NCBI RefSeq assembly: GCF_022809115.1
Contig: NZ_JALGBH010000002.1
Coordinates: 310,001-374,000 of the forward strand
Source: Pedobacter montanisoli
Lineage (GTDB): Bacteria > Bacteroidota > Bacteroidia > Sphingobacteriales > Sphingobacteriaceae
DNA length: 64,000 nucleotides
Direction: 5' to 3'
In this document: piece by piece, positions 37,935 through 55,521 of the stretch
Position numbering within the stretch: the stretch's first letter is position 1
Layout: each line of letters begins with the position of its first letter
Notes under the pieces: model-generated
The model's input: only the letters and a program-made list of their open reading frames with translations
Told to the model about the DNA's origin: nothing
Databases searched by the model: none
Translations under genes and position numbers: made by a program

Positions 37935-39305
37935 TTATAAGCCAAATTTCTCGATACGTCTGTAGAGTGCAGCTCTGGTTAAGCCTAATTCTGCTGCAGC
38001 ACGCGATATATTGCCTTTGTGTTTTTCTATAGCTTTGGCTACCATAGCTTTTTCCATTTCTTCCAAAGGTAAATCCATAGGTACGGCCTGCTGGTGATTA
38101 AATTTATGAGGTGATAATTGCAGGTCATCTTCCGTAATCTCAAAATTTTCAGACATGATGGTGGCACGCTCAATAACATGTTGCAATTCTCTTACGTTGC
38201 CAGGCCAGCTGTATTCCTGTAAGGCCTTTTTGGCTTGTAAGGTTAAAGATTTGGCGGGCTTATGGTATTTATTGCTAAAAACATCAATAAAATGTTTAGC
38301 AAGTACCTGTATATCGTCTCCTCTTTTTCTTAAAGCTGGTAACAGCAATTCTACTGTATTGATACGAAACAGTAAATCCTGTCTGAATGTTCCTTTGGCT
38401 ACCATTTCATTTAAAGGCATATTGGTAGCTGCGATCAGCCTTACATTAATAGGTCTTTCTTTGCTTTCGCCCAAGCGGGTTACTGTTCTATTTTGTAATA
38501 CCGAAAGCAATTTGGTTTGCAGGGTTAAGGATAGGTTACCGATTTCATCTAAAAATATAGTACCACCTTCGGCCATTTCAAATCTTCCGGGGCGGTCTTC
38601 TTTGGCATCGGTAAATGCGCCTTTGGCATAACCGAACAATTCGCTTTCAAATAAGTTCTCATTTAACGAACCCAGATCAACATGCATAAAAATCTGCTGA
38701 TTGCGCAATGATTTTTTATGGATCTCATAGGCATATACCTGTTTTCCTGTTCCATTTTCCCCGAGGATCAGCACATTGGCATCGGTAGGGGCAACTTTAA
38801 GCAAATTCTTTTGCAAAAGCTGGATATCGGTACTGTCGCCTATTATATTTTCAAATTTGCGGGCAATATCAGTATGAAGAGAACTTTGTATCCTTTCGAG
38901 TTTTTTAACTTTCTTTTTAGACTGGGTAAGTTTTGATGCGGCAGACAGCGTGGCAAACAGTTTATCGTTTTCCCAGGGTTTAAGAATAAAGTCTGTTGCT
39001 CCTTTTTTAATGGCTTGTATAGCCAGTTCAACACTTCCAAAGGCAGTCATCAATATTACTACATAATCTTTGTCGATAGAAAGAATATGTTCAAGCCAGT
39101 AAAGCCCTTCACGGCCATCGCTGGCTCCTTTCTGATAATTCATGTCCAGTAAGATGAGGTCTATATCGTTGGTACTTAACAATACATTGATTTCTTTGGG
39201 AGATTTACAGGTGATCACATTCCTGAAATGCAGTTTTAAAAAAAGCTTGGCACTCAGTAAAATGTCGTCATCGTCATCAATTACAAGAATATTACTCTCT
39301 ATCAT
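37935..39305 (-). CDS. NtrC-family sigma-54 dependent response regulator
   Basis: The 456-residue protein has a receiver domain (acidic pocket in VIDDDDDIL, phospho-acceptor Asp54, TAFG, Lys109 in ILKPW), an AAA+ domain with Walker A GENGTGK at 182-188, GAFTDA at 229-234 and Walker B TIFLDEIG, and a Fis-type helix-turn-helix near the end (ISRAAAELGLTRAALYRRI). The sigma-54 contact motif is GAFTDA instead of the proteobacterial GAFTGA. The ATG at 39305 is preferred over a frame extending 19 residues upstream. It is divergent from the exporter cluster and is its likely activator. Confidence 0.92.
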   Translation of the reverse strand: MIESNILVIDDDDDILLSAKLFLKLHFRNVITCKSPKEINVLLSTNDIDLILLDMNYQKGASDGREGLYWLEHILSIDKDYVVILMTAFGSVELAIQAIKKGATDFILKPWENDKLFATLSAASKLTQSKKKVKKLERIQSSLHTDIARKFENIIGDSTDIQLLQKNLLKVAPTDANVLILGENGTGKQVYAYEIHKKSLRNQQIFMHVDLGSLNENLFESELFGYAKGAFTDAKEDRPGRFEMAEGGTIFLDEIGNLSLTLQTKLLSVLQNRTVTRLGESKERPINVRLIAATNMPLNEMVAKGTFRQDLLFRINTVELLLPALRKRGDDIQVLAKHFIDVFSNKYHKPAKSLTLQAKKALQEYSWPGNVRELQHVIERATIMSENFEITEDDLQLSPHKFNHQQAVPMDLPLEEMEKAMVAKAIEKHKGNISRAAAELGLTRAALYRRIEKFGL

Positions 39306-39425
39306 GCTACAAAAATAATGGAAGTGTACGTTGCTGCACAGTAAATGTTCAATAACGGACACCTTATTTTTGATAATTGTATTTATGTTTCTGATTTACA
39401 GTTGTTTACTATTTTTTGTGTGTAT

Positions 39426-39441
39426 TGGCATAAACTTGGCA
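39426..39441 (+). promoter_or_regulatory. Sigma-54 promoter (-24/-12) of the exporter cluster
   Basis: TGGCAT, five bases, then TGGCA matches the TGGCAC-N5-TTGCA consensus with GG and GC exactly 12 bases apart (39427 and 39439). Transcription would start near 39452, so the adaptor start codon at 39468 fits better than the ATG at 39444. The divergent gene encodes a sigma-54 activator. Confidence 0.65.
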
Positions 39442-39467: not shown

Positions 39468-40712
39468 ATGGACAAAGTAATAGAGAAGAAAAAATTTAAC
39501 CGCAAAACCATTATCATCATGGTTGCAGCTATTGTTTTTATTGCATTGGTTGCTTACGGATATCGCTTATCATTAAACAAGGTTTACAGGGTCGAAGCTG
39601 ATAAGATTACATTGAGTAAAGTAGAATATGGAGATTTTGAAGATGTGGTGCTGCTTAATGCCAGTGTTGTGCCTTTAACTTCTGTAATTGTAAGCTCAAG
39701 CGAAGGTGGAACAGTAGCACAAATCTTTACTGAAAACGGATCATTTGTAAAAGAGGGTACACCTTTATTAAGAATAGCAAATCCTAACGCTTTGGCAAGT
39801 TATACCTCTAGCGAAACCAGTATAACCGAACAAATTAACCAATTGCGTAAAGTACGCTTAGACCTAGAGCAGAACCAACGTGTTATGTTGCAAGATATGA
39901 TGGATATCGATAACAAGCTGCGTTCGGCTACCCGTAAATTTAAAGCAGATAGTATCTTATTTGAACGCAAGGTAATTACCAGAGAAGAATTTACCATGTC
40001 ATCGCAAGATTACGATTATTATAAAGGACGTAAATCACTTTTGCAGCAAGCCATTAAACAAGAGAACCAAAGTCGTGGAATGCAGTTGCAGCAGATCGAA
40101 AGCTCTATAGGTCGTATGAATGAAAGTTTAGAACTGATCAGACAAAATATAGAGAACATGACCATTAAAGCTCCGGTATCAGGAAGATTGTCGTCTTATG
40201 ATCCGGTAATTGGTAAATCTTATTCAGCTAACGAGATGTTGGGTAAAATTGATGTTCTGCAAGGTTATAAACTACAGGCTGGTGTGGATGAGTATTATAT
40301 CAACCGTGTTAAAGAAGGACAAAGTGCACATTGCGAGTTTGACGGACAGACTTACAAATTAAAAGTAAACAAAGTTATACCAGAAGTAACAGCCGGTCAG
40401 TTTCAGGTAGAAATGGTATTTGATGGCAAAGCGCCTGAGAACCTGAGAAGAGGTTTGTCTATGCAAACCAAATTAACACTTTCAGATAATAGTAAATCGT
40501 TGTTATTATCACAGGGGCAATTTTTCCAAAGTACCGGAGGCAACTGGGTATTTGTAGAAAAAGATGGAAAAGCAACCAAACGTAACGTAAAGATAGGACG
40601 TAAAAATTACCTGTATTATGAAGTTCTTGAAGGCTTGCAAAAAGGAGAGAACGTGGTAACCTCATCTTACGATTTGTTTAACCAGTACGATATGTTAGAA
40701 ATCACTAAATAA
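39468..40712 (+). CDS. Periplasmic adaptor, HlyD/RND-type membrane fusion protein
   Basis: The 414-residue protein has one N-terminal membrane helix (KTIIIMVAAIVFIALVAYGY). A split lipoyl domain follows (SSSEGGTVAQIFTENGSFVKEGTPLLRI, then TIKAPVSGRLSSY). Between the halves lies a helical hairpin of about 120 residues with several RMNESLELI-type coiled-coil stretches that would reach an outer-membrane TolC channel. The C-terminus has beta-barrel and membrane-proximal parts ending with GLQKGENVVTSSYDLFNQYD. It probably links the ABC permeases that follow to the outer membrane. It is the first gene after the sigma-54 promoter. Confidence 0.85.
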   Translation: MDKVIEKKKFNRKTIIIMVAAIVFIALVAYGYRLSLNKVYRVEADKITLSKVEYGDFEDVVLLNASVVPLTSVIVSSSEGGTVAQIFTENGSFVKEGTPLLRIANPNALASYTSSETSITEQINQLRKVRLDLEQNQRVMLQDMMDIDNKLRSATRKFKADSILFERKVITREEFTMSSQDYDYYKGRKSLLQQAIKQENQSRGMQLQQIESSIGRMNESLELIRQNIENMTIKAPVSGRLSSYDPVIGKSYSANEMLGKIDVLQGYKLQAGVDEYYINRVKEGQSAHCEFDGQTYKLKVNKVIPEVTAGQFQVEMVFDGKAPENLRRGLSMQTKLTLSDNSKSLLLSQGQFFQSTGGNWVFVEKDGKATKRNVKIGRKNYLYYEVLEGLQKGENVVTSSYDLFNQYDMLEITK

Positions 40713-40822: not shown

Positions 40823-41521
40823 ATGATCACAATAGAGAATCTGGAAAAGATATACAAAACCGAAGAAATTGAAACCACTGCGTTGAATGGTATTAATTTC
40901 AAAATTAGAGAAGGTGAATTTGTTTCCATTATGGGCCCTTCTGGATGCGGTAAATCTACTTTATTAAATGTTATGGGTTTATTGGATAAACCCGAAAAAG
41001 GAAGCTACAAGTTTATAGATACCGAGTTGCTTACCTTAAATGATAAGGAGCGTTCTAATTTCAGAAAAAGAAACATGGGCTTTGTATTCCAGAACTTTAA
41101 CCTTATTGATGAATTGAGTGTATTTGAGAACATTGAACTGCCATTGATCTACAATAAAGTAGCTGCTTCTGAGCGTAAAAAGTTGGTGAACGAGATCATT
41201 GAACGTATGAATATTGTTAACCGTAAAGGGCATTTTCCTCAACAATTATCAGGCGGACAGCAACAACGTGTAGCTGTAGCAAGAGCGCTTGTAACTAAAC
41301 CTAAACTGATTTTAGCCGATGAGCCTACTGGTAACTTAGACAGTAGCCATGGTAACGAGGTAATGGAATTACTATGCGAGTTGAATGAGCAGGGAACAAC
41401 TATTGTAATGGTAACCCACTCAAGCCACGATGCCAGCTTCTCAGACAGGATCATCAACCTTAAAGATGGTCATGTAATTTCTGAAAAACTAAATAAAGGT
41501 AAAACAGAAGAACTGATCTAA
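40823..41521 (+). CDS. ABC transporter ATPase, MacB/LolD type (first ATPase)
   Basis: The 232-residue nucleotide-binding subunit has all catalytic motifs: Walker A GPSGCGKST at 38-46, Q-loop VFQNFNLIDELSV, signature LSGGQQQRVAVARAL from 142, Walker B LILADE, canonical D-loop NLDS at 171-174 and switch His199 in MVTHS. The closest families are the ATPases of MacB, LolD and FtsE transporters. It lies 110 bases after the adaptor gene and 78 bases before the first permease, and can be expected to drive several of the permeases. Confidence 0.93.
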   Translation: MITIENLEKIYKTEEIETTALNGINFKIREGEFVSIMGPSGCGKSTLLNVMGLLDKPEKGSYKFIDTELLTLNDKERSNFRKRNMGFVFQNFNLIDELSVFENIELPLIYNKVAASERKKLVNEIIERMNIVNRKGHFPQQLSGGQQQRVAVARALVTKPKLILADEPTGNLDSSHGNEVMELLCELNEQGTTIVMVTHSSHDASFSDRIINLKDGHVISEKLNKGKTEELI

Positions 41522-41599: not shown

Positions 41600-43972
41600 A
41601 TGTTCAAACTAAACCTCAAAATCGCTTTGCGTAACTTATGGAAGAACAAAACTGCTTCTTTCATAAACATTACCGGCCTGGCCATAGGTTTGGCTGCCTG
41701 CTTAATGTTGCTGCTATATGTAAGCTATGAGTGGAATTTTGACAAGCAGGCCAAAAATTCGGCAGACGTTTATACTACAATGACTAATATACCCGGCGAT
41801 GACGGGAAAATAGCAGGAACTTTTGAAGGCTCTGTAAGTGCATTTGGCCCCGCTATTAAACAGGATATTCCTGAAATTGAGTATATGAGCCGCATGGATT
41901 ATGGCAGGAAGAGCCTGATAGCTAACGGAACCAATTCCTTTAAACGTAATTCAAAATTTGCCGAGTCTGATATTTTTAAAATGTATGATTATACATTTAT
42001 TCAGGGTAATCCTGAAACTGCACTGAAAGATCTAAACTCAGTGGTGCTTACAGCAAGCACGGCAAAAATATTGTTTGGTACCACAGATGTATTGAATAAA
42101 ACTGTTCGTTTTCAGGATAAACTGGATTTAAACGTTACGGCAGTAATTAAAGACCAGCCAGATAATAGCTCAAATAAATTTGATTATCTCATGCCCTGGT
42201 CATTGTTGGGTACGCTCGATCCAATGGCACAAACGCTCAATTGGGAGAGTTATAGCTATGTTACTTTGGTTAGATTAAAACCGGGTACTGATGCGGAGTT
42301 GGTTAACCAAAAAATTAAAGAGGTCATCAGAAAAAATACCAGAGATAGCTTTCAATCGCAGTCTTTATTTCCTTTAAGCAAGCTACATTTATACAGTAAG
42401 TTTGAAAACGGCAAAAGTGTTGGGGGTGCTATTGAGCAGATCAGGTTATTTATGGGGCTTGCTTTTGGCATTTTATTAATTGCCTGTATCAATTTCATGA
42501 ACATGGCTACTGCCAAATCAGAAAAACGGGCAAAAGAAGTAGGAATAAAGAAAACAATAGGTGCAAACCGGGTTTCGTTAATTACGCAATTCTTAACCGA
42601 GTCAATGCTGATGGCTTTTGTTGCGGTAATTATTGCAATTGTATTGCTAGAGGTTAGTTTGCCAACTTTTAACGGCTTACTGAACATTAAGTTAAGTATG
42701 CACTATTTTAATGCTTTAAATTGGGTAGGCATTTTAGGTATTGTGTTTATAACCGGTTTAATAGCAGGAAGCTATCCCGCTTTTTATCTATCGGCTTTTA
42801 ACCCAATTCAGAACCTTAAACGCAAAATTAGAGGTAGCGGGTGGGCTAAAATCAGCTTAAGACAGGTTTTGGTAGTAGCTCAGTTTTGTTTTGCTATCAT
42901 TCTGATCATTTCAACCTTGGTTATTTACCGTCAGATACAATATGTAAAAAACAGACCTGTGGGTTTTAATATCAACGCTTTGGTAGAAATGCCTCAAGAC
43001 GGAGAACTTAAAACCAAATATGATGTCTTAAAAAGTGAACTGTTGAAATCTGGAGCTGTTACTTCTATGTTCCAGTCGTCGGTAAGTCTTTCGCATCATG
43101 GAGCTAATTTTTTGGATATCAAATGGGAAGGCATGACACAGCCTGAAAACAGGGTAATGTTTAATCAGGTTGCTACTTCTTATGATTTCCTTAAAACCAA
43201 TGGCATTAAACTGTTAGAAGGAAGAGATTTTTCAGAACAGTTCGCTTCAGATTCGCTGGGTGTTCTGGTAAGTGCTTCAGCAGTGAAAACATTTGGTTAC
43301 AAAGATCCGCTGGGTAAAACGATTACCGTTTTTGGTAGTAAACTTAATATTATAGGGGTTTTTGATGACTACGTATGGGATTCGCCTTATAAAGCCAATA
43401 ACCCAATGGTTGTGTTTTTAGATCCAAACCGTAGAGGCACTATTACGATGCGTTTAAACGAAACACGTACTTTGGCCGATAACATCAATACCATTAGTCA
43501 GATCGCAAAATCACTAAATCCTGCCTATCCGGTTGAGATCAATTTCCTTAACAATGTATATGCAGAAAAATACAATGCCGAAAAAACCTTAGGCATTTTG
43601 GCTAACCTTTTTGGCGGACTGGCCATTTTCGTTTCCTGTTTAGGTTTATTTGGTCTGGTGGCTTACAGCGCAGAACAACGTACCAAAGAGTTTGGAGTGC
43701 GTAAAGTACTGGGTGCATCAGTAGCTAACCTGATGCAGCTTTTATCCGTTTCGTTTGTAAAAATGATTTTGGTTGCTGTGGTTATAGCCGTACCATTGAG
43801 TTACTACGCCATGAACAAATGGTTAAGCCAGTTTGAGTTCCATACAGAAATCAGTTGGTGGATTGTACCGGTTGCTGCATTCGGAACCCTGTCTTTAGCA
43901 TTGATCACTATTAGTTTTCAGGCTTTTAAATCGGCCAAGGCCAACCCGGTTGATGCTTTGAAATACGAGTAG
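41600..43972 (+). CDS. ABC permease, FtsX/MacB type, copy 1 of 7
   Basis: The 790-residue protein is an internal duplication of a four-helix MacB-like unit. Each half has one helix, a large periplasmic domain (about residues 43-280 and 450-665) and three further helices. The cytoplasmic coupling motifs are RAKEVGIKKTIGA near 310 and RTKEFGVRKVLGA near 695. The start MFKLNLKIALRNLWKNK and the tail NPVDALKYE recur in all seven copies. Copies 1 and 2 are the closest to each other in the first half (LLLYVSYEW, LYSKFENGKSVGG). The substrate is unknown; relatives export peptides, lipoproteins or antibiotics. Confidence 0.9.
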   Translation: MFKLNLKIALRNLWKNKTASFINITGLAIGLAACLMLLLYVSYEWNFDKQAKNSADVYTTMTNIPGDDGKIAGTFEGSVSAFGPAIKQDIPEIEYMSRMDYGRKSLIANGTNSFKRNSKFAESDIFKMYDYTFIQGNPETALKDLNSVVLTASTAKILFGTTDVLNKTVRFQDKLDLNVTAVIKDQPDNSSNKFDYLMPWSLLGTLDPMAQTLNWESYSYVTLVRLKPGTDAELVNQKIKEVIRKNTRDSFQSQSLFPLSKLHLYSKFENGKSVGGAIEQIRLFMGLAFGILLIACINFMNMATAKSEKRAKEVGIKKTIGANRVSLITQFLTESMLMAFVAVIIAIVLLEVSLPTFNGLLNIKLSMHYFNALNWVGILGIVFITGLIAGSYPAFYLSAFNPIQNLKRKIRGSGWAKISLRQVLVVAQFCFAIILIISTLVIYRQIQYVKNRPVGFNINALVEMPQDGELKTKYDVLKSELLKSGAVTSMFQSSVSLSHHGANFLDIKWEGMTQPENRVMFNQVATSYDFLKTNGIKLLEGRDFSEQFASDSLGVLVSASAVKTFGYKDPLGKTITVFGSKLNIIGVFDDYVWDSPYKANNPMVVFLDPNRRGTITMRLNETRTLADNINTISQIAKSLNPAYPVEINFLNNVYAEKYNAEKTLGILANLFGGLAIFVSCLGLFGLVAYSAEQRTKEFGVRKVLGASVANLMQLLSVSFVKMILVAVVIAVPLSYYAMNKWLSQFEFHTEISWWIVPVAAFGTLSLALITISFQAFKSAKANPVDALKYE

Positions 43973-44141
43973 TTTGAAGACGGAAGTCCGGAGACAGAAG
44001 TCCGGAGACAGAAGTCAGAAGTCAGAAGTCAGAAGACTGAAAGACGACCAACGAACAAATAAATGACAAGCAAACAACGACAAGCGAACAACGAAATAAA
44101 CGACAAACGAACAACGGAAAAACGAATAAACAAACACACAC
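43973..44141 (+). repeat. Spacer between permeases 1 and 2 with short tandem repeats
   Basis: Two exact copies of GAAGTCCGGAGACA lie at 43983-43996 and 43997-44010. Three copies of GAAGTCA follow at 44011-44031. The rest is A/C-rich sequence of the ACGAACAACGA type up to CACACACATG, with few T. Confidence 0.7.
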
Positions 44142-46505
44142 ATGTTTAAACTGAATTTAAAAATAGCTTTACGTAACCTTTGGAAAAATAAAGGTTTTTC
44201 ACTGATCAATATTGGCGGTTTGGCCATTGGTTTAGCCAGTTGTATGATATTGCTGCTTTATGTAGCTTATGAATGGAGCTATGACAAGCAATTTACCAAT
44301 TACGACAAGACCTATGTAGTCTATAACAACCAGAAAACGCCTACGCAAACGTTTAGTTTTGTGGCCGTTTCAGGAGTAATGGAAAAAGAAGTTAGAGAAA
44401 AAGTTAACGGCGTAGCTGCGGTTACCCGTGTAGCCTATCCAGAAGAAACTCTTCTTTCATATAATAACAACAATATTAAGAAAGAAGTTGTTTCTGCCGA
44501 TCCAGACTTTTTAAAGATCTTTGATTATAAGGTACTTAAAGGCAATCCAAAAGATCTGTTAAAAAACCCTGATGGAGTTGTTCTTACCGAAACGCTTGCC
44601 AAAATTCTTTTTAATACAGAAGATCCTATTGGTAAAGTGATCAAATACGATAATAAAGAACCTCTTAAAGTAGAAGCAGTTATCCAAGATTTACCTAAAA
44701 ACTCATCCATCAGTGCCGATATGATCACTTCGTGGGCATTGTACGAAAAAATAAATCCATGGGTAAAAAACAGCGGATGGGGCAATAATTATTGCATGTT
44801 GTTTATCCAATTAAAGGATAATAAGTTCTTTAATACGGCTAATAATCATCTAAAAGGAATGATAAAGGCCAGTAATCCAGAAACGAACAACGAAGCCATG
44901 ATGTTCCCTTTAAAAAAATGGCATCTGTACAGCAAATTTGAAAACGGAGTTTCTGTTGGTGGTAAAATAGATAACCTTAGAATATTCCTGATCTTGGCAT
45001 TTAGCATCTTGCTGATCGCCTGTATCAATTTTATGAATCTTTCAACGGCAAAATCAGAGAAAAGAGCGAGAGAAGTTGGGGTGCGCAAGGCCATAGGATC
45101 TACTAGGGGAAATCTTGTTGGGCAGTTTATGTTAGAATCGGTTCTAATTGCCCTGTTCAGTACATTGGTAGCATTTGTGTTGATAGAAGTCAGCTTACCT
45201 TATTTTAACAATTTGTTGGGCATTACACTTAAAATCAATTATACAGATGTTTATTTCTGGACAGTTTTTATAGGCTTGGCATTAATTACCGGAATAGTTT
45301 CAGGAAGCTATCCAGCATTTTATTTATCGTCTTTTGAACCTGTTAAAGTACTTAAAGGTTTTAAGCTTGGCGGTAGCGGATCACTCTCTGTACGTAAGTT
45401 TTTGGTGGTGTTTCAGTTTGCTTTTTCTGCCTGTTTAATTATATGTACGGTGGTAATTTACCAGCAGTTAACTTATATCAAAAACAAACCTATAGGTTAT
45501 AACAGCGTAAACTTGCTAGAAATAAAAGCAGAGGGAGAGTTAGACAATGAGGGCAAGCGCAAGGTTTTAAAAGACTTGTTGATTAAATCGGGCGCAATAA
45601 CCGATTTTACAGAATACAGCACTTCTTTAACCGGATCGGGTAACAATACCTATGGTTTTAGCTGGCCTGGCAAAAATGAAAAAGACATTGTGTTGGTAAA
45701 TTTTAGGTTTACCAATTTAGATTTTACCAAAACCACAGGCATGAGCCTTTTGCAAGGTAGAGACTTTGCCAAAGAATTTAAAGATACGGCAAGTGTTATG
45801 GTAAACGAAGCCATGGTTAAAACAATGGGAATGGAAAAACCTGTTGGGCAAATCGTTTCTTGGGGCGATGACAAATACAAAATAATAGGGGTACTTAACG
45901 ATTATGTAATGGGCAGCCCGTATAAAAAACCTATGCCCTTAGTCGTAATGCAAAACCCAAGTGCGGCTAATACAATTATTGTAAGACTTAACCCTGAAAA
46001 TAATGCTACAAACTCGGTAGAAAAAATAAAAAACATCATTAAAGAAGTTAATCCAGCATATCCAGCTGAAATCAAGTTTGTGAGCGAAAAATTTGAGAGT
46101 AAACTGAATGATGAGAAACTGTTAGGAACACTGGCCAACTGGTTTGGCGGCTTGGCCATATTTATCTCTTGTTTAGGTTTATTAGGTCTGGCTCTGTATA
46201 TGGCTACACAGCGTAAAAAAGAAATCAGTATCCGTAAAGTACTGGGCGCAAGTACAGGCAACATTCTTACTTTGTTAAATAAGGAGTTTATTGTTCTGGT
46301 AATTATTGCTAATGCGGTGGCTTTTCCACTGGCCTATATCATTATTAATAAATGGCTTATCGGTTTTGAGTACCATGTTAGTTTATCGGTTATTCCTTTC
46401 CTGATCGCCATCAGTCTTTCTATTCTTGTGGCCATCCTTACGGTAAGTATCCAGTCGGTAAAAGTGGCTAAATCAAATCCGGTAGATGCGCTAAAATATG
46501 AATAG
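44142..46505 (+). CDS. ABC permease, FtsX/MacB type, copy 2 of 7
   Basis: The 787-residue copy has coupling motifs KRAREVGVRKAIGS near residue 308 and RKKEISIRKVLGA near 689. Its first periplasmic domain begins YDKQFTNYDKTYVVYNNQKT and differs from copy 1 in most positions, although the framework phrases GSYPAFYLSSFEPVKVLKG and LHLYSKFENGVSVGG-like sequence are shared. The second periplasmic domain has SLLQGRDFAKEFKDTASVMV. No frameshift or missing helix is seen, so the gene appears functional. Confidence 0.9.
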   Translation: MFKLNLKIALRNLWKNKGFSLINIGGLAIGLASCMILLLYVAYEWSYDKQFTNYDKTYVVYNNQKTPTQTFSFVAVSGVMEKEVREKVNGVAAVTRVAYPEETLLSYNNNNIKKEVVSADPDFLKIFDYKVLKGNPKDLLKNPDGVVLTETLAKILFNTEDPIGKVIKYDNKEPLKVEAVIQDLPKNSSISADMITSWALYEKINPWVKNSGWGNNYCMLFIQLKDNKFFNTANNHLKGMIKASNPETNNEAMMFPLKKWHLYSKFENGVSVGGKIDNLRIFLILAFSILLIACINFMNLSTAKSEKRAREVGVRKAIGSTRGNLVGQFMLESVLIALFSTLVAFVLIEVSLPYFNNLLGITLKINYTDVYFWTVFIGLALITGIVSGSYPAFYLSSFEPVKVLKGFKLGGSGSLSVRKFLVVFQFAFSACLIICTVVIYQQLTYIKNKPIGYNSVNLLEIKAEGELDNEGKRKVLKDLLIKSGAITDFTEYSTSLTGSGNNTYGFSWPGKNEKDIVLVNFRFTNLDFTKTTGMSLLQGRDFAKEFKDTASVMVNEAMVKTMGMEKPVGQIVSWGDDKYKIIGVLNDYVMGSPYKKPMPLVVMQNPSAANTIIVRLNPENNATNSVEKIKNIIKEVNPAYPAEIKFVSEKFESKLNDEKLLGTLANWFGGLAIFISCLGLLGLALYMATQRKKEISIRKVLGASTGNILTLLNKEFIVLVIIANAVAFPLAYIIINKWLIGFEYHVSLSVIPFLIAISLSILVAILTVSIQSVKVAKSNPVDALKYE

Positions 46506-46653
46506 ATAAAGATGTAAAGTCTGGAGACGGAAGTCCGAAGCCAAAAATTAAAGGTCGGGAGTCCGAAAAGACAACCAACGATAAGCGAATAACAATCAAC
46601 GAAAGACGAAAAACGACCGATAAAAAACGAGTAAAAAACACATAACCACAAAA
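46506..46653 (+). other. Spacer between permeases 2 and 3
   Basis: Just after the stop lies TAGATAAAGATGTAAAGTCTG, a block nearly repeated after permease 4 (51494 onward). It is followed by GGAAGTCCGAAGCC and an A/C/G-rich ACCAACGATAAGCGAATAAC-like tract up to the next ATG. Confidence 0.6.
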
Positions 46654-49023
46654 ATGTTTAAACTCAATTTAAAAATAGCCTTGCGTAACCTTTGGAAAAA
46701 TAAAGGGATTACAGCCATAAATATTGGTGGATTAGCTATTGCTTTGGCAGCCTTTGTTTTGGTCATGTTATATTTTACTTATGAAACTAGTTTTGATAAG
46801 GAAAATCCGAATTATGATCATGTTTATATTGTTGGAATAAATTATCCAGAATTTAAAACTGATTATGCCCCTGCGCCATTTGCAGTAGCTATCAAACAAA
46901 ATTTTCCTGAAGTAGATAGAGTTGGCCTTGTTAAGGGTAGCTCTTTTGAGTTGACAATTAAAAATGGGGGAAATACACTTTTTACGAGTAAAATTCTCAC
47001 TGTTGATTGCAATGCGGCCAAAATTCTCAACATCAACCCCAGTGGCGGTCTTGTAAAACCATCTGGAGATGCAGAAAGACTTAATTATTTAAGTAATGAA
47101 AGCATGAAAATACTCTTTCCTGATAAAAAGGATAATAAACCGGAGATAGTTGGATTTGGAGCAAGTAATTTAGGGATAACCGGAATAATAGCTGGGTCAA
47201 TAAAAAATGATCCTCATTCTAACTTTAATTTCGATGGTGTTTCTATTAGCAATAAATTAGGTAATCGTGATAACTATGACATGAACGATTATACCATTTA
47301 TCTACAGCTAAAACCTGGCGTTAATGTATTAAGTTTAGAACGAAAAATCACTGATCTCTATAGAGCAGAATTACTAAAAAATAAAGTAGGGGGAAGTAAG
47401 GATGAACTAAAAGGCATTTCTACATTTTTAGATCCACTATCGAGTTTGCATTTAAAGCCAAAAGCTGGTAATAACACTCCATATAAAATACTCATTGCGA
47501 TTTCAGTTTTGGGCTTGTTGATTTTGCTAATAGCCTGCATTAATTTTACTAACCTGAGTATTGCACAAGCCACTAAGCGTGCCAAAGAAGTTGGTGTTAA
47601 AAAAGTTATGGGAGCTTTTCGTTTCCAATTGATCACACAATTTCTTATTGAGATTTTTATGCAATGTTTTGCTGCTATCATTTTGGCTTTAATTTTAGCA
47701 GAATTGGTGTTACCAAGCTTCAATACACTGTTTCAAGTACAATTATCGATTTGGCATTTGGGTAACGATTTGTTTTGGCAACTACCACTAATTTTATCTG
47801 TAATTACACTTATTGCAGGTATTTATCCGGCAATAATTTTATCTGGGTTTAAACCTATATTGGTTTTAAAAGGTAATTTTTCTACTAGCAAACAAAGTTA
47901 TGTGTTGCGTAATAGTTTGATAGTTTTTCAGTTCAGTATTGCTGTTGTTTTCATGATAAGTTTACTTATTATCAATTCGCAATTAAAGTATATGCGAAGT
48001 CAGGATTTAGGTTTTACAGCAGATGAAGTGGTTTATATTAAAAACATTTCCATTTTTAACGATCCTTTAAAATTTGAACCAGTTAGAGAAAAAATTCTAA
48101 AAATTCCGGGTATAAAATCAGCAACCGTAGCCACTTTTGTACCAAGTGGTCAAAATGGAGTAAATAGTTACGTGGCCAATGGTATAAAAGCCAATATTGA
48201 TTTTGTGGGCGTAGATTTTGATTACTTCGAGACTTTGGATATTAAGCTAAAAAAAGGGCGTTTTTTTTCTCGTGAATTTAAAACAGATACTGCAAACTCT
48301 GCTGTAATAAATGAAAGCGCCATGGTTAAATATGGTATAAAAAATCCAATCGGACAAACTATAAGAGGTTGCAATATAGATTATAAAATTGTTGGGGTTG
48401 TTAAAGATTTTAAAACACAAGGTTTTGAAAATATTGTTCAACCTACTATTTATACCATTAAAGAACCATGCGGAGGGAACAAAATGCAAATCATGCTAAA
48501 AATTGAACAGAAGATGATGGCTGGTGCATTAGCTACATTGAAAGCACAATGGTCTGATATTAATAAGCAAGATGGTGAAGATTTCAGATATCTGTTTCTG
48601 GATGAAATGTATGGTAAGCTTTTTAAAAAGCAAGAGCAATTGCAAACGGTCTTTTTTGCGGCAGCGCTGCTAACTATTTTTATTGCCATTTTAGGACTCT
48701 TTGCCTTCGTAAAATATATCACTAATGTTAGAATCAAAGAAATAGCACTTCGCAAAATATTAGGTGCAAGTAACTTTCAGATTATGAAATTAATTAATTC
48801 TTCATTCTTTGTTATGGTATTAATTGCCAATTTAATATCCTGGCCACTTGCCTATGTTTTAACCAAAAAATGGCTTTCAACTTTTGCTTATCGAATTGAT
48901 ATGCCCGTTTTGCCTTTTATGTTAAGTGCAGTGGTAACTGTTTTATTAACCATTATTACGGTAAGCATACAAACCAATAAAGCTGTGAAAGCTAAACCTG
49001 TTGATGCTCTGAAATATGAATAG
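46654..49023 (+). CDS. ABC permease, FtsX/MacB type, copy 3 of 7
   Basis: The 789-residue copy has coupling motifs KRAKEVGVKKVMGA near residue 308 and RIKEIALRKILGA near 692. It forms a close pair with copy 4: identical length, and shared phrases such as NPNYDHVYIVG, FTNLSIAQATKRAKEVGVKK, DYKIVGVVKDFKTQGFEN and KPVDALKYE. Its DNA looks more AT-rich than copy 4 (21 versus 27 G or C in one comparable 60-base sample), so it may have a different recent history. Membrane helices are complete. Confidence 0.9.
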   Translation: MFKLNLKIALRNLWKNKGITAINIGGLAIALAAFVLVMLYFTYETSFDKENPNYDHVYIVGINYPEFKTDYAPAPFAVAIKQNFPEVDRVGLVKGSSFELTIKNGGNTLFTSKILTVDCNAAKILNINPSGGLVKPSGDAERLNYLSNESMKILFPDKKDNKPEIVGFGASNLGITGIIAGSIKNDPHSNFNFDGVSISNKLGNRDNYDMNDYTIYLQLKPGVNVLSLERKITDLYRAELLKNKVGGSKDELKGISTFLDPLSSLHLKPKAGNNTPYKILIAISVLGLLILLIACINFTNLSIAQATKRAKEVGVKKVMGAFRFQLITQFLIEIFMQCFAAIILALILAELVLPSFNTLFQVQLSIWHLGNDLFWQLPLILSVITLIAGIYPAIILSGFKPILVLKGNFSTSKQSYVLRNSLIVFQFSIAVVFMISLLIINSQLKYMRSQDLGFTADEVVYIKNISIFNDPLKFEPVREKILKIPGIKSATVATFVPSGQNGVNSYVANGIKANIDFVGVDFDYFETLDIKLKKGRFFSREFKTDTANSAVINESAMVKYGIKNPIGQTIRGCNIDYKIVGVVKDFKTQGFENIVQPTIYTIKEPCGGNKMQIMLKIEQKMMAGALATLKAQWSDINKQDGEDFRYLFLDEMYGKLFKKQEQLQTVFFAAALLTIFIAILGLFAFVKYITNVRIKEIALRKILGASNFQIMKLINSSFFVMVLIANLISWPLAYVLTKKWLSTFAYRIDMPVLPFMLSAVVTVLLTIITVSIQTNKAVKAKPVDALKYE

Positions 49024-49126: not shown

Positions 49127-51496
49127 ATGTTTAAACTCAATTTAAAAATAGCATTACGTAATCTTTGGAGAAACAAAAGTATTACTGCCATAAATATTGG
49201 AGGCCTTGCCATTGCATTGGCTGCTTTCCTGATCCTTATGATTTATGTTACTTATGAAACTACTTTTGATAAGGACAATCCCAATTATAATCATATTTAT
49301 TTAGTTGGACGTAAATCATCTGCTTTCCAGACAAATTTTACTCCGCCATCATTAAGCAAAGAGATCAAAGCAAATTTTCCGGAAGTTGAAGCGGCCGGAA
49401 CCATTAAGCACAATTTCTTTGAATTTGCGATAAATAAAGATGCCAATACCGTATTTGCTAAGAAACACATTTTTATAGAGTACGAAGCAGCTAAGATCCT
49501 GAATATAAAACCTGAACATGGTCTTACGCAACCGGCTGGCGATGAGTTTATTTTTTACCTCAATAAACCTTATATGGAAACCTTGTTTCCGGGTAAAAAA
49601 GATGATAAGCCTGAAATGGTTTCGCTCGGAAGCAAATCTGCAGGACATACCGGAAAAATAAGCGGTGTTATCCAAACAGATGCACATTCAAATATAGATT
49701 TTGATGTACTGACAGTTGTTAAAGAACTGGGCAAAGGCGAAAATTATGGTTACAACAATTACTTCACTTATATACAGGTAAAACCTGGGACAGATATTGC
49801 CTTACTCACTAAAAAAATAGAGAAAATGTATCGTGCCAATACGGCAAAGGCTTTTGGCGAACCAGATTGGAAAGAGATCAATAGCGTTAATGTTTTTCTT
49901 GATCCTTTGAAAAATTTGCATTTAAGACCTACAGCTGGTACAGATACAAACTATAAAGTAGTGCTGGCCATATCGGTACTGGGCTTATTGATGTTAGTTA
50001 TAGCCTGTATCAATTTTACCAACCTAAGTATTGCACAGGCAGCTAAAAGAGCTAAAGAAGTAGGTGTAAAAAAAGTAATGGGCGTTTTCCGTTACCAGCT
50101 TGTATTTCAGTTCATCACAGAAATACTGATACAATGTATTGTGGCCGGAGGGGTGGCACTTATATTGGCCGAACTGATCCTGCCGGCATTTAACAGCTTA
50201 TTTGAAATCAACCTTAACATATGGCATAACAATACCGCTATTTTCTGGCAATTACCAGCTATAATTATGGGTATTACTCTTATTGCCGGTATCTATCCTG
50301 CGTTGGTTCTCTCGGGTTTCAGACCAGCTCTGGTATTAAAAGGTAACTTTCAGACCAGCAGACAAAGTTACTGGCTTAAAAACAGCTTGCTCGTATTTCA
50401 GTTTGCGGTAGCAGTTATCTTTATTGTAGGTCTGTTTATTATTAATTCGCAGCTTAAATATATGCGAACGCAAGATGTAGGATTTAAAGCCGAGCAAGTG
50501 GTAGCTGTAAAAAACATGGCATTTTTCACAGATCCTAAGGTTTTTGAACCCGTTCGCGAAAAGATCATGCAAATACCAGGTGTAAAATCGGTAACTGTTG
50601 CAAATGCCATTCCTGATGGTTCAAAGTTGGGCAAGAATGGTTATACAGCCGAAGGTAAGAAAGAAACACTTGGTTTCTTGGATGTTGATTTTGATTACTT
50701 TGAAACTTTAGGTATTTCGTTAAAAGAAGGCAGATTTTTTAACAGGGCATTTAAATCAGATACTGTAAACTCAGCTATTCTTAACGAAAGTGCCGTTGCT
50801 AAATATGGTTTGGTAAATCCGATTGGTAAAACCATAAGAGGTTGCAGTATGGATTATAAGATTGTAGGCGTAATCAAAGATTTTAAATCAGAAGGATTTG
50901 AAAATGCGGTAGAACCTACTATTTATAGCTTAAACAATCCTTGCGGTAATGCTAAACTCGAAATCCTGATTAAGATAGAAGCCCAGCAGATGTCTGCTGC
51001 ATTAGAAGGCTTAAAAAGACAATGGTCGTCTATTAACAAGTTAGATGGAGATCATTTCCGTTACCAGTTTTTGGATGAATTGTATGGTCGTTTGTTTAAA
51101 AAACAAGAACAATTGCAGGCCATATTTTTTGTAGCCGCTATGCTTACCGTATTTATAGCTGTATTGGGTTTGTTTGCCTTTGCTAAATATGTAACCAATG
51201 CACGCAATAAAGAAATTGCGGTACGTAAAGTTTTAGGTGCTACCGATTTACAGATTTTAAAACTGTTAAACAGCTCATTCTTTGTTATTGTGCTTATCGC
51301 CAATTTACTGGGCTGGCCTTTAGCTTATTTGCTAACCAAAAAATGGCTCGAAACCTTTGCTTACAGAGCAGATATGCCTGTAACTCCATTTGTATTGAGT
51401 GCTTTGATTACTATGGGTTTGTCTTTGCTTACTGTGAGCATACAAGCTTCAAAAAGTGTGAAAGCTAAACCGGTTGACGCCTTGAAATATGAATAG
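49127..51496 (+). CDS. ABC permease, FtsX/MacB type, copy 4 of 7
   Basis: The 789-residue copy is the sister of copy 3. It carries NLWRNK instead of NLWKNK at the N-terminus, coupling motifs KRAKEVGVKKVMGV near 308 and RNKEIAVRKVLGA near 692, and the tail KPVDALKYE. Differences from copy 3 are concentrated in the first periplasmic domain (residues 60-230) and in a short insert GSKLGKNGYTAEG in the second. That pattern would fit diversification of the substrate-facing parts. The reading frame is intact. Confidence 0.9.
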   Translation: MFKLNLKIALRNLWRNKSITAINIGGLAIALAAFLILMIYVTYETTFDKDNPNYNHIYLVGRKSSAFQTNFTPPSLSKEIKANFPEVEAAGTIKHNFFEFAINKDANTVFAKKHIFIEYEAAKILNIKPEHGLTQPAGDEFIFYLNKPYMETLFPGKKDDKPEMVSLGSKSAGHTGKISGVIQTDAHSNIDFDVLTVVKELGKGENYGYNNYFTYIQVKPGTDIALLTKKIEKMYRANTAKAFGEPDWKEINSVNVFLDPLKNLHLRPTAGTDTNYKVVLAISVLGLLMLVIACINFTNLSIAQAAKRAKEVGVKKVMGVFRYQLVFQFITEILIQCIVAGGVALILAELILPAFNSLFEINLNIWHNNTAIFWQLPAIIMGITLIAGIYPALVLSGFRPALVLKGNFQTSRQSYWLKNSLLVFQFAVAVIFIVGLFIINSQLKYMRTQDVGFKAEQVVAVKNMAFFTDPKVFEPVREKIMQIPGVKSVTVANAIPDGSKLGKNGYTAEGKKETLGFLDVDFDYFETLGISLKEGRFFNRAFKSDTVNSAILNESAVAKYGLVNPIGKTIRGCSMDYKIVGVIKDFKSEGFENAVEPTIYSLNNPCGNAKLEILIKIEAQQMSAALEGLKRQWSSINKLDGDHFRYQFLDELYGRLFKKQEQLQAIFFVAAMLTVFIAVLGLFAFAKYVTNARNKEIAVRKVLGATDLQILKLLNSSFFVIVLIANLLGWPLAYLLTKKWLETFAYRADMPVTPFVLSALITMGLSLLTVSIQASKSVKAKPVDALKYE

Positions 51497-51573
51497 ATAA
51501 AGATGTGAAGTCTGAAGACGGAAGTCCGAAGCCTAAAACAAACGACAAACGAACAATAACAAACGAACAGACA
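51497..51573 (+). other. Spacer between permease 4 and the S41-like gene
   Basis: The block after the stop repeats the one after permease 2 (GATAAAGATGTGAAGTCTGA, then GGAAGTCCGAAGCC), followed by ACGACAAACGAACAATAAC. The S41-like gene therefore carries the same leader type as the permeases. Confidence 0.6.
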
Positions 51574-53043
51574 ATGAAACATAAATTTTTAATACTAACC
51601 TTACTGATGATTGGATTGGGATTTTTTAACGGTTATGCGCAAAGCTGTAACTGTGAAGAAAATTTCAATTGGGTAAAGAAAACGTTTGAAGAGAACGATG
51701 CCGGGTTTAAGTATGCTTTAAGTGTTAAAGGCAAACAGGCATACGAAGATCATAACAAAAGAATTTTAGAGAAGATTAAAACAGCTAAAACGCTGAACGA
51801 ATGTGCACCTATACTTTATGAATGGTTGGAGTTTTTCCGTTCGGGGCATATTGCCATTAGGTTAACAAACCAAAATTCAAATAATAATACCAATACAACT
51901 GCAGTTGCAACCAGCTCGGCAAATTATGATAATTGGGAAACGCTGAAGGTTAATCTGCCTGAATTTGAAAAATATCTGGCTAATAAAAAAGAACAGGATC
52001 TGGAAGGCATATGGGTTACCGAACCTTATAAAATAGGAATCAAGAAAGTAAAGAATGATTATATCGGATTTATCATCGAATCAGGTGCTGATACATGGAA
52101 AAAAGATCAAGTAAAACTTAAAGTTACCCATAAGAACAATAAGCTTTACTCTACTTTTTATATGCGTGATCATAGTGCGGTAGAATCAGATAAGGTTGAA
52201 CCTTTTGGTAAGAATACATTGCAATTGGGAAATACTGCCTTAAAAAGAGTATATCCCAAGTTAGAAGAGGATAAAGATATTAAAGCCTATTCGAGAATAA
52301 TAGAGGCCAGAAAACCTTTTATGGAGAAACTGGATGATAAGACCGTTTATATCAGAATCCCGTCGTTTAACGTAAGCAGTAAAAAAGATATAGACAGTGT
52401 ATTGAACTTACACAGAGCAACCATTTTAAAAACAGAAAATCTGATACTGGATATCCGTTACGGTACAGGCGGTAGCGATTCGAGTTTTGGAGAAATCATT
52501 CCTTTTATTTACACCAACCCCATAAGAACAGTAGGAGTAGAATATTACTCAACAAAACTGAATAACCAACGTATGCTCGATTTTATCAGTAAACCTGAGT
52601 ATGGTTTTGATGAAGATGATAAAAAATGGGCAAAAAAAGCATACGATACACTTGAAAAACACTTAGGAACCTTTATGTCCTTAAATAAATATCCCGTTTC
52701 AGAAGAAAAGCTGGATACTATACATGAATACCCTAAAAATGTAGGCATCATTATCAATAAAAATAATGGAAGCACAGATGAACAGTTTCTGTTAGCAGCC
52801 AAACAAAGTAAAAAAGTAAAACTTTTTGGTACCACAACTCACGGCGTGCTCGATATCTCAAACATGTATTTTGTACCCTCACCATGCAAAGAATTTGAAC
52901 TGGGTTATTCGTTAAGCAGAAGCAAAAGAATACCTGATTTCCCGATAGATGAAATAGGCATACAGCCCGATTTTTATATAGATGAATCTATTCCTAAATA
53001 CAAATGGGTAGAATTTGTAAGCGGGGTACTGAATAATAAATAG
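51574..53043 (+). CDS. Secreted S41-peptidase-like protein
   Basis: The 489-residue protein starts with a signal peptide (FLILTLLMIGLGFFNGYAQ). A cysteine pair CNC and a helical N-terminal part follow, then a C-terminal region like S41 proteases: FFRSGHIAIRL, VYIRIPSFN, LILDIRYGTGGSDSSFGEII and NGSTDEQFLLAAKQSKKVKL with candidate nucleophile Ser400. The usual lysine in the last motif is not evident, so activity is uncertain. The ATG at 51574 is chosen over a frame starting in the spacer. It is the only non-transporter gene inside the array. Confidence 0.75.
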   Translation: MKHKFLILTLLMIGLGFFNGYAQSCNCEENFNWVKKTFEENDAGFKYALSVKGKQAYEDHNKRILEKIKTAKTLNECAPILYEWLEFFRSGHIAIRLTNQNSNNNTNTTAVATSSANYDNWETLKVNLPEFEKYLANKKEQDLEGIWVTEPYKIGIKKVKNDYIGFIIESGADTWKKDQVKLKVTHKNNKLYSTFYMRDHSAVESDKVEPFGKNTLQLGNTALKRVYPKLEEDKDIKAYSRIIEARKPFMEKLDDKTVYIRIPSFNVSSKKDIDSVLNLHRATILKTENLILDIRYGTGGSDSSFGEIIPFIYTNPIRTVGVEYYSTKLNNQRMLDFISKPEYGFDEDDKKWAKKAYDTLEKHLGTFMSLNKYPVSEEKLDTIHEYPKNVGIIINKNNGSTDEQFLLAAKQSKKVKLFGTTTHGVLDISNMYFVPSPCKEFELGYSLSRSKRIPDFPIDEIGIQPDFYIDESIPKYKWVEFVSGVLNNK

Positions 53044-53130: not shown

Positions 53131-55521
53131 ATGTTTAAACTGAACTTAAAAATAGCCTTACGCAATCTTTGGAAAAACAAGACCTATACCATTATTAATA
53201 TTTTGGGTCTTTCTATAGGAATGGCCTGTTGTATCCTCATTTTCATGTTTATCAATTACCAGATGAGCTATGATAAAGGCTACAAAAATGAAGACCAGAT
53301 TTATCGTGTAGTTTCTACCTGGAATTATGCTGATGGTAATAATTTTTCTTCACAGGGTGTCCCACTGCCATTAGCACCTGCTTTGCGCAATGATTTTTCG
53401 GCACAACTCGAAAAGGTTTCAGCTATACAGCAGGCATTTGGTATTGTCAAAATAAATGATGCTAAAGGCAATGAAAAATTAAAAACACAAGAGCGTACAT
53501 TTTATATAGAGCCAGAGTTTTTTGATATTTTCGATTTCAAGTGGTTAGCCGGGCAGGCAGATGAACTGAAAAATCCAAATACAACCATTCTAACTAAAGA
53601 AACAGCTACCCGATTTTTTGGTGACTGGAAAAACGCAGTTGGCAAATCATTTAACTACCAGAATAATGAAAACTACAAGGTAATTGGGGTAATTGACGAC
53701 CTACCTAAAAACAGCTCATTCCCTATAAGAATTGTTCTTTCGTATAAAAATTATAAGAACAAAAATATGGATAGATGGGGTTCTTGCTCTTCATCTTCAG
53801 AATGTTATGTTTTGCTAAAGAAAGGTGTAGATATCAATAGCCTAAGCGCCCCAATGGCTCAGTTTGTAAATAAATATTATACAGATAAGGGCCCGGGTAA
53901 AGAGGGACATCATTTTCAGGCTTTAAGCCAGATCCATTACGATCCTGAATATGGAAATTTTGCAGGTAATACCATGCCTATGAAAGAAATATATGGCCTA
54001 ATGGTAATAGGAGCGTTTCTTATGCTTACAGCTTGTATCAACTTTATCAATCTGGCTACAGCTCAATCGATCAGTCGTTCAAAAGAAATAGGCGTAAGAA
54101 AGGTAATGGGAAGTATGCGCAAGCAATTGATCGTGCAATTCCTTACAGAAACTTTTTCTTTAACCCTTATTGCTTTGCTATTTGCCTGTGTGTTAACAGA
54201 AGCTGCTTTACCGGGCATGCGCAACCTGTTCAACATCGATATGGCTTTCAATATCTTTCAATATCCGTCTATCTTTTTATTTATGGTAGCCTTAACGGTT
54301 GTGGTAGCTTGTTTGTCTGGTTTTTATCCTGCATTGGTGATGTCGGGTTTTAGCCCGGCTTTAGCTATTAAAAACAAAGTAAAAGCCAATACGGGTGGTT
54401 TAGGACTGAGAAAAGTGCTTGTGGTGGTACAGTTTGCCCTTACTGTGGTACTTATTATCGGCACTTTGTTTATCATCAATCAGATGAAATACATCAGAGA
54501 GCGGCCTATAGGCTTTAATCCTTCGGCCATTGCGTTGGTAGATATTCCTAATGATAGTATCAGCAGAACAAGATTTGACGTATTAAAATCGCGTATTATG
54601 CAAGTGCCGGGAGTAAAAAATCTGACTTTGTGTATGTCTGCACCTTCATCATCTAATAATAATGAAAGCAATTTCTCTTATAACAGCTCAAAAGATGCCG
54701 ATTTCCAGGTTAATACTAAAGTTGGCGACGAAAATTACTTTAAAACATTTGGGCTGGATTTTGTAGCCGGCAGAGCTTTCAGTAAAAGTGATACCATAAG
54801 AGAATATGTGGTAAATGAAACCTTACTGAAACGATTAAATGTACCTAACCCGCAGGAAGCTGTAGGTAAAAAGCTGAACATTAGCGGCAGATCAGGACAA
54901 ATTGTGGGTGTGGTTAAAGATTTTAATAATAATAGCCTGCGCGATGGTATTTCACCAATAGCCATCAGTACCTATAAAAAAGGCTATTATACCATGGCTG
55001 TTAAGCTTGATAGTAAGCAGATTATGCAGGGTATGGCAGATATCCAGAAAATATGGAATAATGTATTTCCTGAATATGTATATAGTTCTTCATTTATGGA
55101 TGATGAGATTAACAGTTATTACGAGAGCGAAAAAATTATGGGTACTTTATTTAAAGTGTTTGCAGGGGTAATTATTTTCATCTCATTCATAGGTTTATTT
55201 GGGTTGATTTCTTTTGTGGCTGCACAACGAACCAAAGAAGTGGCTATTAGGAGAGTGTTAGGTGCTTCTACATTTGAGCTGGTTAAAATGCTAAATGGTT
55301 CATTTCTGCTTATGGTTTTCATTGCAAATCTGGTGGCCTGGCCTTTGGCTTATGTATTTGTGTCGAAATGGCTCAATGGCTTTACCTATCGTATCAATGT
55401 GAGTATATGGCCTTTTGTTATTGCCATGTGCATTTCTTTAATCATCACTTTGATTACAGTATCGATGCGCTCGTTAAGAGCAGCTAAAGCCAATGCCATT
55501 GATGCCCTTAAATATGAATAA
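53131..55521 (+). CDS. ABC permease, FtsX/MacB type, copy 5 of 7
   Basis: The 796-residue copy is divergent from copies 1-4. Its first helix reads GLSIGMACCILIFMFINYQMSY, coupling motifs are SRSKEIGVRKVMGS near 315 and RTKEVAIRRVLGA near 700, and the tail is NAIDALKYE instead of NPVDALKYE. The first periplasmic domain contains a distinct cysteine-containing stretch WGSCSSSSECYVLLKKG. It directly precedes the second ATPase gene, so it may be the partner of that ATPase. Confidence 0.9.
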   Translation: MFKLNLKIALRNLWKNKTYTIINILGLSIGMACCILIFMFINYQMSYDKGYKNEDQIYRVVSTWNYADGNNFSSQGVPLPLAPALRNDFSAQLEKVSAIQQAFGIVKINDAKGNEKLKTQERTFYIEPEFFDIFDFKWLAGQADELKNPNTTILTKETATRFFGDWKNAVGKSFNYQNNENYKVIGVIDDLPKNSSFPIRIVLSYKNYKNKNMDRWGSCSSSSECYVLLKKGVDINSLSAPMAQFVNKYYTDKGPGKEGHHFQALSQIHYDPEYGNFAGNTMPMKEIYGLMVIGAFLMLTACINFINLATAQSISRSKEIGVRKVMGSMRKQLIVQFLTETFSLTLIALLFACVLTEAALPGMRNLFNIDMAFNIFQYPSIFLFMVALTVVVACLSGFYPALVMSGFSPALAIKNKVKANTGGLGLRKVLVVVQFALTVVLIIGTLFIINQMKYIRERPIGFNPSAIALVDIPNDSISRTRFDVLKSRIMQVPGVKNLTLCMSAPSSSNNNESNFSYNSSKDADFQVNTKVGDENYFKTFGLDFVAGRAFSKSDTIREYVVNETLLKRLNVPNPQEAVGKKLNISGRSGQIVGVVKDFNNNSLRDGISPIAISTYKKGYYTMAVKLDSKQIMQGMADIQKIWNNVFPEYVYSSSFMDDEINSYYESEKIMGTLFKVFAGVIIFISFIGLFGLISFVAAQRTKEVAIRRVLGASTFELVKMLNGSFLLMVFIANLVAWPLAYVFVSKWLNGFTYRINVSIWPFVIAMCISLIITLITVSMRSLRAAKANAIDALKYE

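Follow-up and report, generated by a model that had tools for sequence, protein, structure and literature searches.

A conserved -24/-12 element with putative tandem enhancer palindromes before a predicted MacB-type exporter array in Pedobacter montanisoli

How a large exporter gene array is switched on is the question raised by a stretch of 64,000 nucleotides from Pedobacter montanisoli, here called the window. The array starts with an adaptor gene that lies back to back with the gene of a response regulator, and the interval between them carries the sequence TGGCATAAACTTGGCA on the plus strand (39426-39441), with a T just before it at 39425. The initial annotation had described a TGGCAT-N5-TGGCA element with 12-nucleotide spacing between GG and GC, located before the adaptor ATG and divergent from the regulator gene, and the sequence confirmed each of these points. 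The G of GG is at 39427, the G of GC at 39439 and the ATG at 39468; a Met-Asp start at the same place opens every Pedobacter ortholog of the adaptor. The -12 box of the window reads TGGC, one base different from the canonical TTGC. From the usual spacing between a -12 box and the start site, transcription is predicted to begin at about 39452. The features of the locus are collected in Table 1.

Table 1. Features of the regulatory region and the exporter array, in window coordinates
Feature	Position	Strand	Basis or remark
Kinase, histidine, with two membrane helices and very short loop	36521-37879	-	Pfam, hydropathy; start codon inferred from orthologs
NtrC-type response regulator	37935-39305	-	Pfam: receiver, AAA+ sigma-54 domain with GAFTDA, Fis-type HTH
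Probable -7 box TATTTTTG of regulator promoter (consensus TAnnTTTG)	39310-39317	-	-33 region would fall in UAS1
Distal enhancer palindrome UAS1 TGTACGTTGCTGCACA	39325-39340	.	Predicted; pair conserved in 46/46 Pedobacter loci
Proximal enhancer palindrome UAS2 TGTTCAATAACGGACA	39346-39361	.	Predicted; 21 bp after UAS1, 80 bp before TGG
Possible DNA-bending (IHF/HU-like) site, YAAN4TTGATW-like	39384-39396	+	Two mismatches in window; weak
-24/-12 element TTGGCATAAACTTGGCA	39425-39441	+	Sequence; TTGGC and -12 G invariant in 46/46 distinct Pedobacter loci
Periplasmic adaptor (HlyD/RND-MFP type, DarC-like)	39468-40712	+	Pfam, family models
ABC ATPase (DarD/LolD-like)	40823-41521	+	Pfam, family models
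Duplicated MacB/FtsX permease 1	41600-43972	+	
Duplicated MacB/FtsX permease 2	44142-46505	+	
Duplicated MacB/FtsX permease 3	46654-49023	+	
Duplicated MacB/FtsX permease 4	49127-51496	+	
Peptidase family S41 protein within array	51505-53043	+	Start codon uncertain
Duplicated MacB/FtsX permease 5	53131-55521	+	
Second ABC ATPase (DarD-like)	55635-56315	+	
Duplicated MacB/FtsX permease 6	56387-58804	+	
Duplicated MacB/FtsX permease 7	58904-61378	+	

Conservation of the -24/-12 element

Motif counts did little to single out the element. Its own exact pattern gave a single zero-mismatch match within the window, the degenerate pattern TGGNA-N6-TKGCW gave 3 matches in the window against 3.2 expected, and TTGGYA-N6-TKGCW gave 20 matches in the whole genome against 11 with a backwards control. 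Since these counts are near chance in both window and genome, we dropped them as a means of judging the element. It is convincing as a sigma-54 promoter because it is conserved in relatives.

Adaptor orthologs with 73-82% identity were found in 27 other genomes of the genus; the nearest named record is the MAG Pedobacter sp. UBA1951, with 98% adaptor identity. Across 28 same-genus loci TTGGC, the T at position 12 and the -12 G were all invariant, and the element started 41-48 nt upstream of the ATG. Pooling the same-genus loci with named records and removing duplicates gave 46 distinct Pedobacter loci, which were aligned on the anchor TGGC[AG][CT]. Conservation in close relatives, set beforehand as the test by which the element could be refuted, was looked for and found in all 46. 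The C of the -12 box is replaced by T in 14 of them, and position 13 is mostly G. Among 82 distinct loci of other genera, 79 have TGGCAY no more than 220 nt from the start, as compared to 7.2 in shuffles. As the loci share descent, none of these locus counts are independent. The -12 box in these 82 loci varies by clade (TTACC in 20, TTGAC in 12), being mostly TTAC in Flavobacterium and TTGA in another clade. Because the box departs from TTGC, we regard the -12 contact as atypical. Promoters of the -24/-12 type have been mapped experimentally in Flavobacterium psychrophilum, where the targets of sigma-54 include envelope-stress functions (PMC9723704).

Predicted enhancer palindromes and the divergent regulator

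Upstream of the element two putative activator sites with the consensus TGTNC-N6-GNACA stand in tandem, 21 bp apart from start to start. In the window the -24 box follows them at 80 and 101 bp, a looping distance. The pair was present in 46 of 46 Pedobacter loci (0.00 in shuffles) and a single palindrome in 67 of the 82 loci from other genera (0.08 in shuffles). A search of 38 genomes with the tandem pattern gave no control matches at all; the pair occurred in each of the 18 Pedobacter genomes that carry the adaptor gene, and five without it (G005, G010, G012, G015, G017) lacked the pair. The exception is G021, a 78% complete genome with one tandem site in which the adaptor was not detected. 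The P. montanisoli genome has the tandem pair in one place. A third genome match to the single palindrome (C1:1408280) sits past the end of a deacetylase-like gene and was rejected as chance, and a palindrome plus -24 box separated by a loose gap was matched 4 times in the genome against 7 times in the control, so only the known site was counted. With the pair unique and the loose search null, the switch in P. montanisoli appears to have one target.

Every one of the 46 Pedobacter loci has 78-80 bp between the proximal palindrome and TGG. Loci of other genera have 68-70, 77-80, 88-91 or 101-103 bp, apart from one with 94, and at the extra tandem sites of Pedobacter described below the distance was mainly 67-69 and 77-80 bp, with some at 57. 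As judged from the sequences, the palindrome-to-promoter distances among relatives differ by whole helical turns. Because the loci are related by descent, the phase test was done on the distinct distance values rather than on locus counts and, according to the period assumed, gave p of about 0.001-0.03. Between enhancer and promoter, an exact IHF-like motif occurred in 23 of 46 Pedobacter loci (0.9 in shuffles) and in 2 of 82 loci elsewhere (1.3 in shuffles). The P. montanisoli genome has one clear HU-type gene. The reading as an IHF site is weak, the motif being strong across Pedobacter and absent elsewhere.

The regulator scored above the cut-offs of PF00072, PF00158 and PF02954, which places it in the NtrC family by domain content. 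Among 109 relatives, 106 have the regulator gene divergent from the adaptor gene; this set overlaps the promoter loci described above. A literal GAFTGA loop was not found in the window regulator, which reads GAFTDA; about 100 of the 106 relatives also carry GAFTDA, one has GAFTGA, and in five no motif was read. The NorR variant G266D, with the same glycine-to-aspartate change, is active, forms open complexes in vitro and bypasses repression (PMC2941729), so GAFTDA fails the strict motif rule and not the function. Possibly the loop is matched to the unusual -12 sequence of this promoter group. In L181, the only relative with GAFTGA, the -12 box reads TTGCC. A rule that GAFTDA always accompanies a non-TTGC box was rejected, as it fails on locus L141, which combines GAFTDA with TTGCA.

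On the minus strand 22 of the 28 Pedobacter loci have a TAnnTTTG motif at 23-24 nt from UAS1, with the match in L013 counted as chance. Its position suggests a regulator promoter overlapping the enhancer and hence that the regulator may repress its own promoter through UAS1. According to hydropathy, the kinase encoded next to the regulator has helices at about residues 10-28 and 33-51, joined by a loop of about 4 residues. The helix pair with a short loop is similar in three relatives; it was not seen by hydropathy in G037, where the called start lies later. Two helices joined by a very short extracytoplasmic loop are the topology of an intramembrane-sensing histidine kinase. The 3.29 Mb genome contains one copy of rpoN and four clear sigma-54 activators besides the regulator.

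We estimate a probability of roughly 90% that the element serves the exporter operon as its sigma-54 promoter, equipped with the enhancer pair and controlled by the divergent NtrC-type regulator. Sigma-54 control is strongly supported by the conserved element, the phased palindromes, the single rpoN and the loss of the pair where the adaptor is missing. In the mechanism that we propose, the kinase would phosphorylate the regulator, dimers of which would bind both palindromes and then assemble an AAA+ ring; the ring would loop the DNA to the sigma-54 polymerase and open the promoter. On the palindromes the regulator would also cover the -33 region of its own sigma-A promoter and tend to repress its gene.

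The element might instead be a Bacteroidota housekeeping (sigma-A) promoter whose likeness to sigma-54 promoters is incidental, given that TAAACTTG at 39431-39438 is one base off the -7 box TAnnTTTG, a consensus established in Flavobacterium (PMC9723704). The TA of that box is not kept, however: the 46 loci are split evenly at position 6, 23 with T and 23 with C, whereas all of them have TTGGC. A housekeeping promoter would also leave the whole-turn distances of the palindromes and their joint absence with the adaptor unexplained, which makes this explanation extremely improbable. It is likewise very improbable that the sigma-54 promoter is real while the palindromes belong to another regulator and the neighbouring one controls something else. 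The four other activators in the genome could provide such a regulator, and binding of the palindromes by the neighbouring regulator is predicted. Against this stand the divergent arrangement in nearly all relatives and the absence of the tandem pair from the five adaptor-less Pedobacter genomes, which were classed by adaptor and not by regulator.

The exporter array and dispersed permeases

The adaptor scored 113.9 bits against TIGR01730 (cut-off 94.9), which identifies it as an RND/HlyD-type periplasmic adaptor. Of 396 Bacteroidota genomes sampled, 121 contain it. By Pfam, the permease type has both the MacB_PCD and the FtsX domain, in two stretches each; against the ADOP model TIGR03434 the permease score of 283 bits over the full length was under the cut-off of 622. 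Relatives of the exporter parts with solved structures are MacB and MacA. Within the P. montanisoli genome duplicated permeases occur in this array only, the other MacB_PCD matches being in frames of 411-425 aa.

According to the initial annotation, the kinase-regulator pair senses membrane or envelope stress and turns on the whole exporter. The part of this proposal that concerns a regulator-driven sigma-54 promoter was supported by the conserved element, the phased enhancers and the single rpoN. The element may activate the whole exporter, which is plausible, but the intergenic gaps of 71-169 bp between most exporter genes and the extra enhancers inside the arrays of three related genomes speak against taking this as established. 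Sensing of the envelope by the kinase, suggested by the helix pair with its short loop and by general sigma-54 themes, is a tentative and rather doubtful assignment. An envelope disturbance as the signal would be a guess, as would a peptide, lipopeptide or similar amphiphile as the substrate, which is suggested by the relation to MacB and to the darobactin exporter. In view of the MacB/MacA and DarBCD relatives and the kinase topology, both guesses appear reasonable.

Two gaps in the array (43973-44141 and 46506-46653) are made of the short repeats GAAGTCCGGAGACA and AACGAACAACGA, possibly traces of array rearrangement. No counterpart of the S41 peptidase gene was seen in the two related arrays that were read (G016, G022). 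In G050 (L072:11829-20000, L073:1-6000) repeated proteins with an RHS-like core lie between the ATPase and distant permeases.

In the 38-genome search the locus was present in 17 other genomes of the genus; 14 of these contain further tandem palindromes, and G003, G007 and G016 have the main site only. Out of 36 such extra sites 21 lay within 300 bp of the start of a duplicated permease, and 34 had a -24-like hexamer 55-105 bp downstream; two were without a -24 box. Downstream of the other extra sites are genes for small secreted proteins or for proteins of about 120 aa, or unrelated genes. In addition, the upstream regions of 16 off-array permeases were read, chosen as having no tandem site found. 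Fifteen of them had one or more palindromes together with a -24 box at a matching distance (67 or 77-79, or 98-101 when measured from a distal palindrome), L299 being the exception; shuffles put the chance of such a combination at about 1.2% per region. The permease family has 7-18 copies in six genomes with the adaptor-ATPase hub and, at E 1e-60, no member in four genomes without the adaptor. In the stretches that were inspected, the main arrays aside, the orphan permeases had no close relative of either the ATPase or the adaptor as a neighbour.

Because the same switch precedes orphan permeases without a neighbouring ATPase or adaptor, one adaptor and ATPase may form a hub that serves several, possibly interchangeable, permeases, co-expressed with them through the common switch. 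Judged from gene neighbourhoods, which are the basis for ATPase sharing, we give this arrangement an even chance. For other Pedobacter we infer a sigma-54 regulon built around the exporter hub. The full picture, in which a hub would power interchangeable duplicated permeases, some far away, under one sigma-54 switch whose enhancer moves by whole turns only, falls a little short of even odds.

The extra permeases could also be ordinary independent transporters that have a common regulator at their promoters and share neither ATPase nor adaptor, an explanation that deserves attention and that we hold for possible rather than probable. Other ABC ATPases in these genomes could serve them; the lack of close ATPase or adaptor relatives near the orphan permeases and the absence of the family from the four genomes without the hub argue for the shared hub instead. 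A further possibility is that the system exports a self-made product and does not defend against envelope damage, since the best named relatives of its adaptor and ATPases are DarC and DarD of the darobactin exporter. These matches are under the equivalog cut-offs, and no biosynthetic genes were identified beside the exporter cluster among the window genes examined, which makes export of a self-made product unlikely.

Some sites have other surroundings. In L206, L209, L220, L226 and L229 (near position 4001) a tandem palindrome pair and a TGGCAC or TGGCAT -24 box precede small secreted proteins, which match DUF2807 (GIN domain) in L206 and L229 and are alike by sequence start in L209, L220 and L226. 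Similar proteins of about 120 aa without a confident Pfam family follow the tandem sites in L199, L201 and L225 (near 4001) and are a possible small-protein member of the regulon. In three Pedobacter genomes (L205, L211, L227) an extra tandem pair lies within the main permease array, which suggests internal promoters there; the window array has none.

Relation to known systems

The predicted switch has the parts of the NtrC, AtoC, ZraR and PrsR systems, that is a -24/-12 element, upstream palindromic enhancers, a receiver-AAA-Fis activator and a cognate kinase. It differs from NtrC-family systems in the GAFTDA loop, the atypical -12 box and the permease-exporter target, and the window regulator scored under the cut-offs of the named equivalog models. 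The initial annotation had seen a resemblance to stress-sensing kinases paired with antibiotic exporters. In systems of the BceRS-BceAB type a kinase with almost no extracellular loop is encoded beside a permease exporter. The resemblance holds in logic only: here the regulator is a sigma-54 activator and not of the OmpR type, the permeases are of the duplicated MacB type, and the adaptor and ATPases are nearest to the darobactin exporter. DarB-DarC-DarD comprises the same three kinds of part; the scores against the Dar models were all under the cut-offs (adaptor 226 of 450 bits for DarC, ATPases 290 and 258 of 375 for DarD, permease 112 of 700 for DarB), and the darobactin exporter differs from the present array with its seven permeases, two ATPases and sigma-54 switch.

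Passages of a 2025 survey report that sigma-54 promoters are enriched before COG0577 FtsX-like permeases in Bacteroidia, which it termed first evidence (PMC12316311). As given in these passages, the survey retained GAFTGA activators only, a rule by which the regulator type of the window would be left out; the same passages hold no description of this enhancer, its phasing, the dedicated regulator or the dispersed sites (PMC12316311). Our search for literature on MacB or FtsX regulation in Pedobacter found nothing direct. As far as could be found, the specific enhancer, its phasing, the GAFTDA regulator type and the dispersed permeases are new. In passages of a study on Pseudomonas H2-type VI secretion, RpoN/Sfa2 is examined as coordinator of the main cluster and scattered vgrG islands (PMC8855297). 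That case and the present one share a sigma-54 activator and a main cluster with satellites; the machine and the regulator are unrelated.

The enhancer provides a sequence handle with which the regulon can be listed in any genome, and the whole-turn spacings amount to a natural experiment on DNA looping by sigma-54 activators. The existence of a GAFTDA type suggests that real activators escape searches restricted to GAFTGA. A large MacB-type permease family would have its dedicated sigma-54 regulon, and, if the permeases indeed share one ATPase, the system would be an unusual modular exporter.

Adaptor relatives with a GAFTDA regulator were also seen in MAGs titled Zixibacteriota-like and Cloacimonadota (L141 and L153), with the -12 boxes TTGCA and ATGCT, which are nearer to the canonical sequence.
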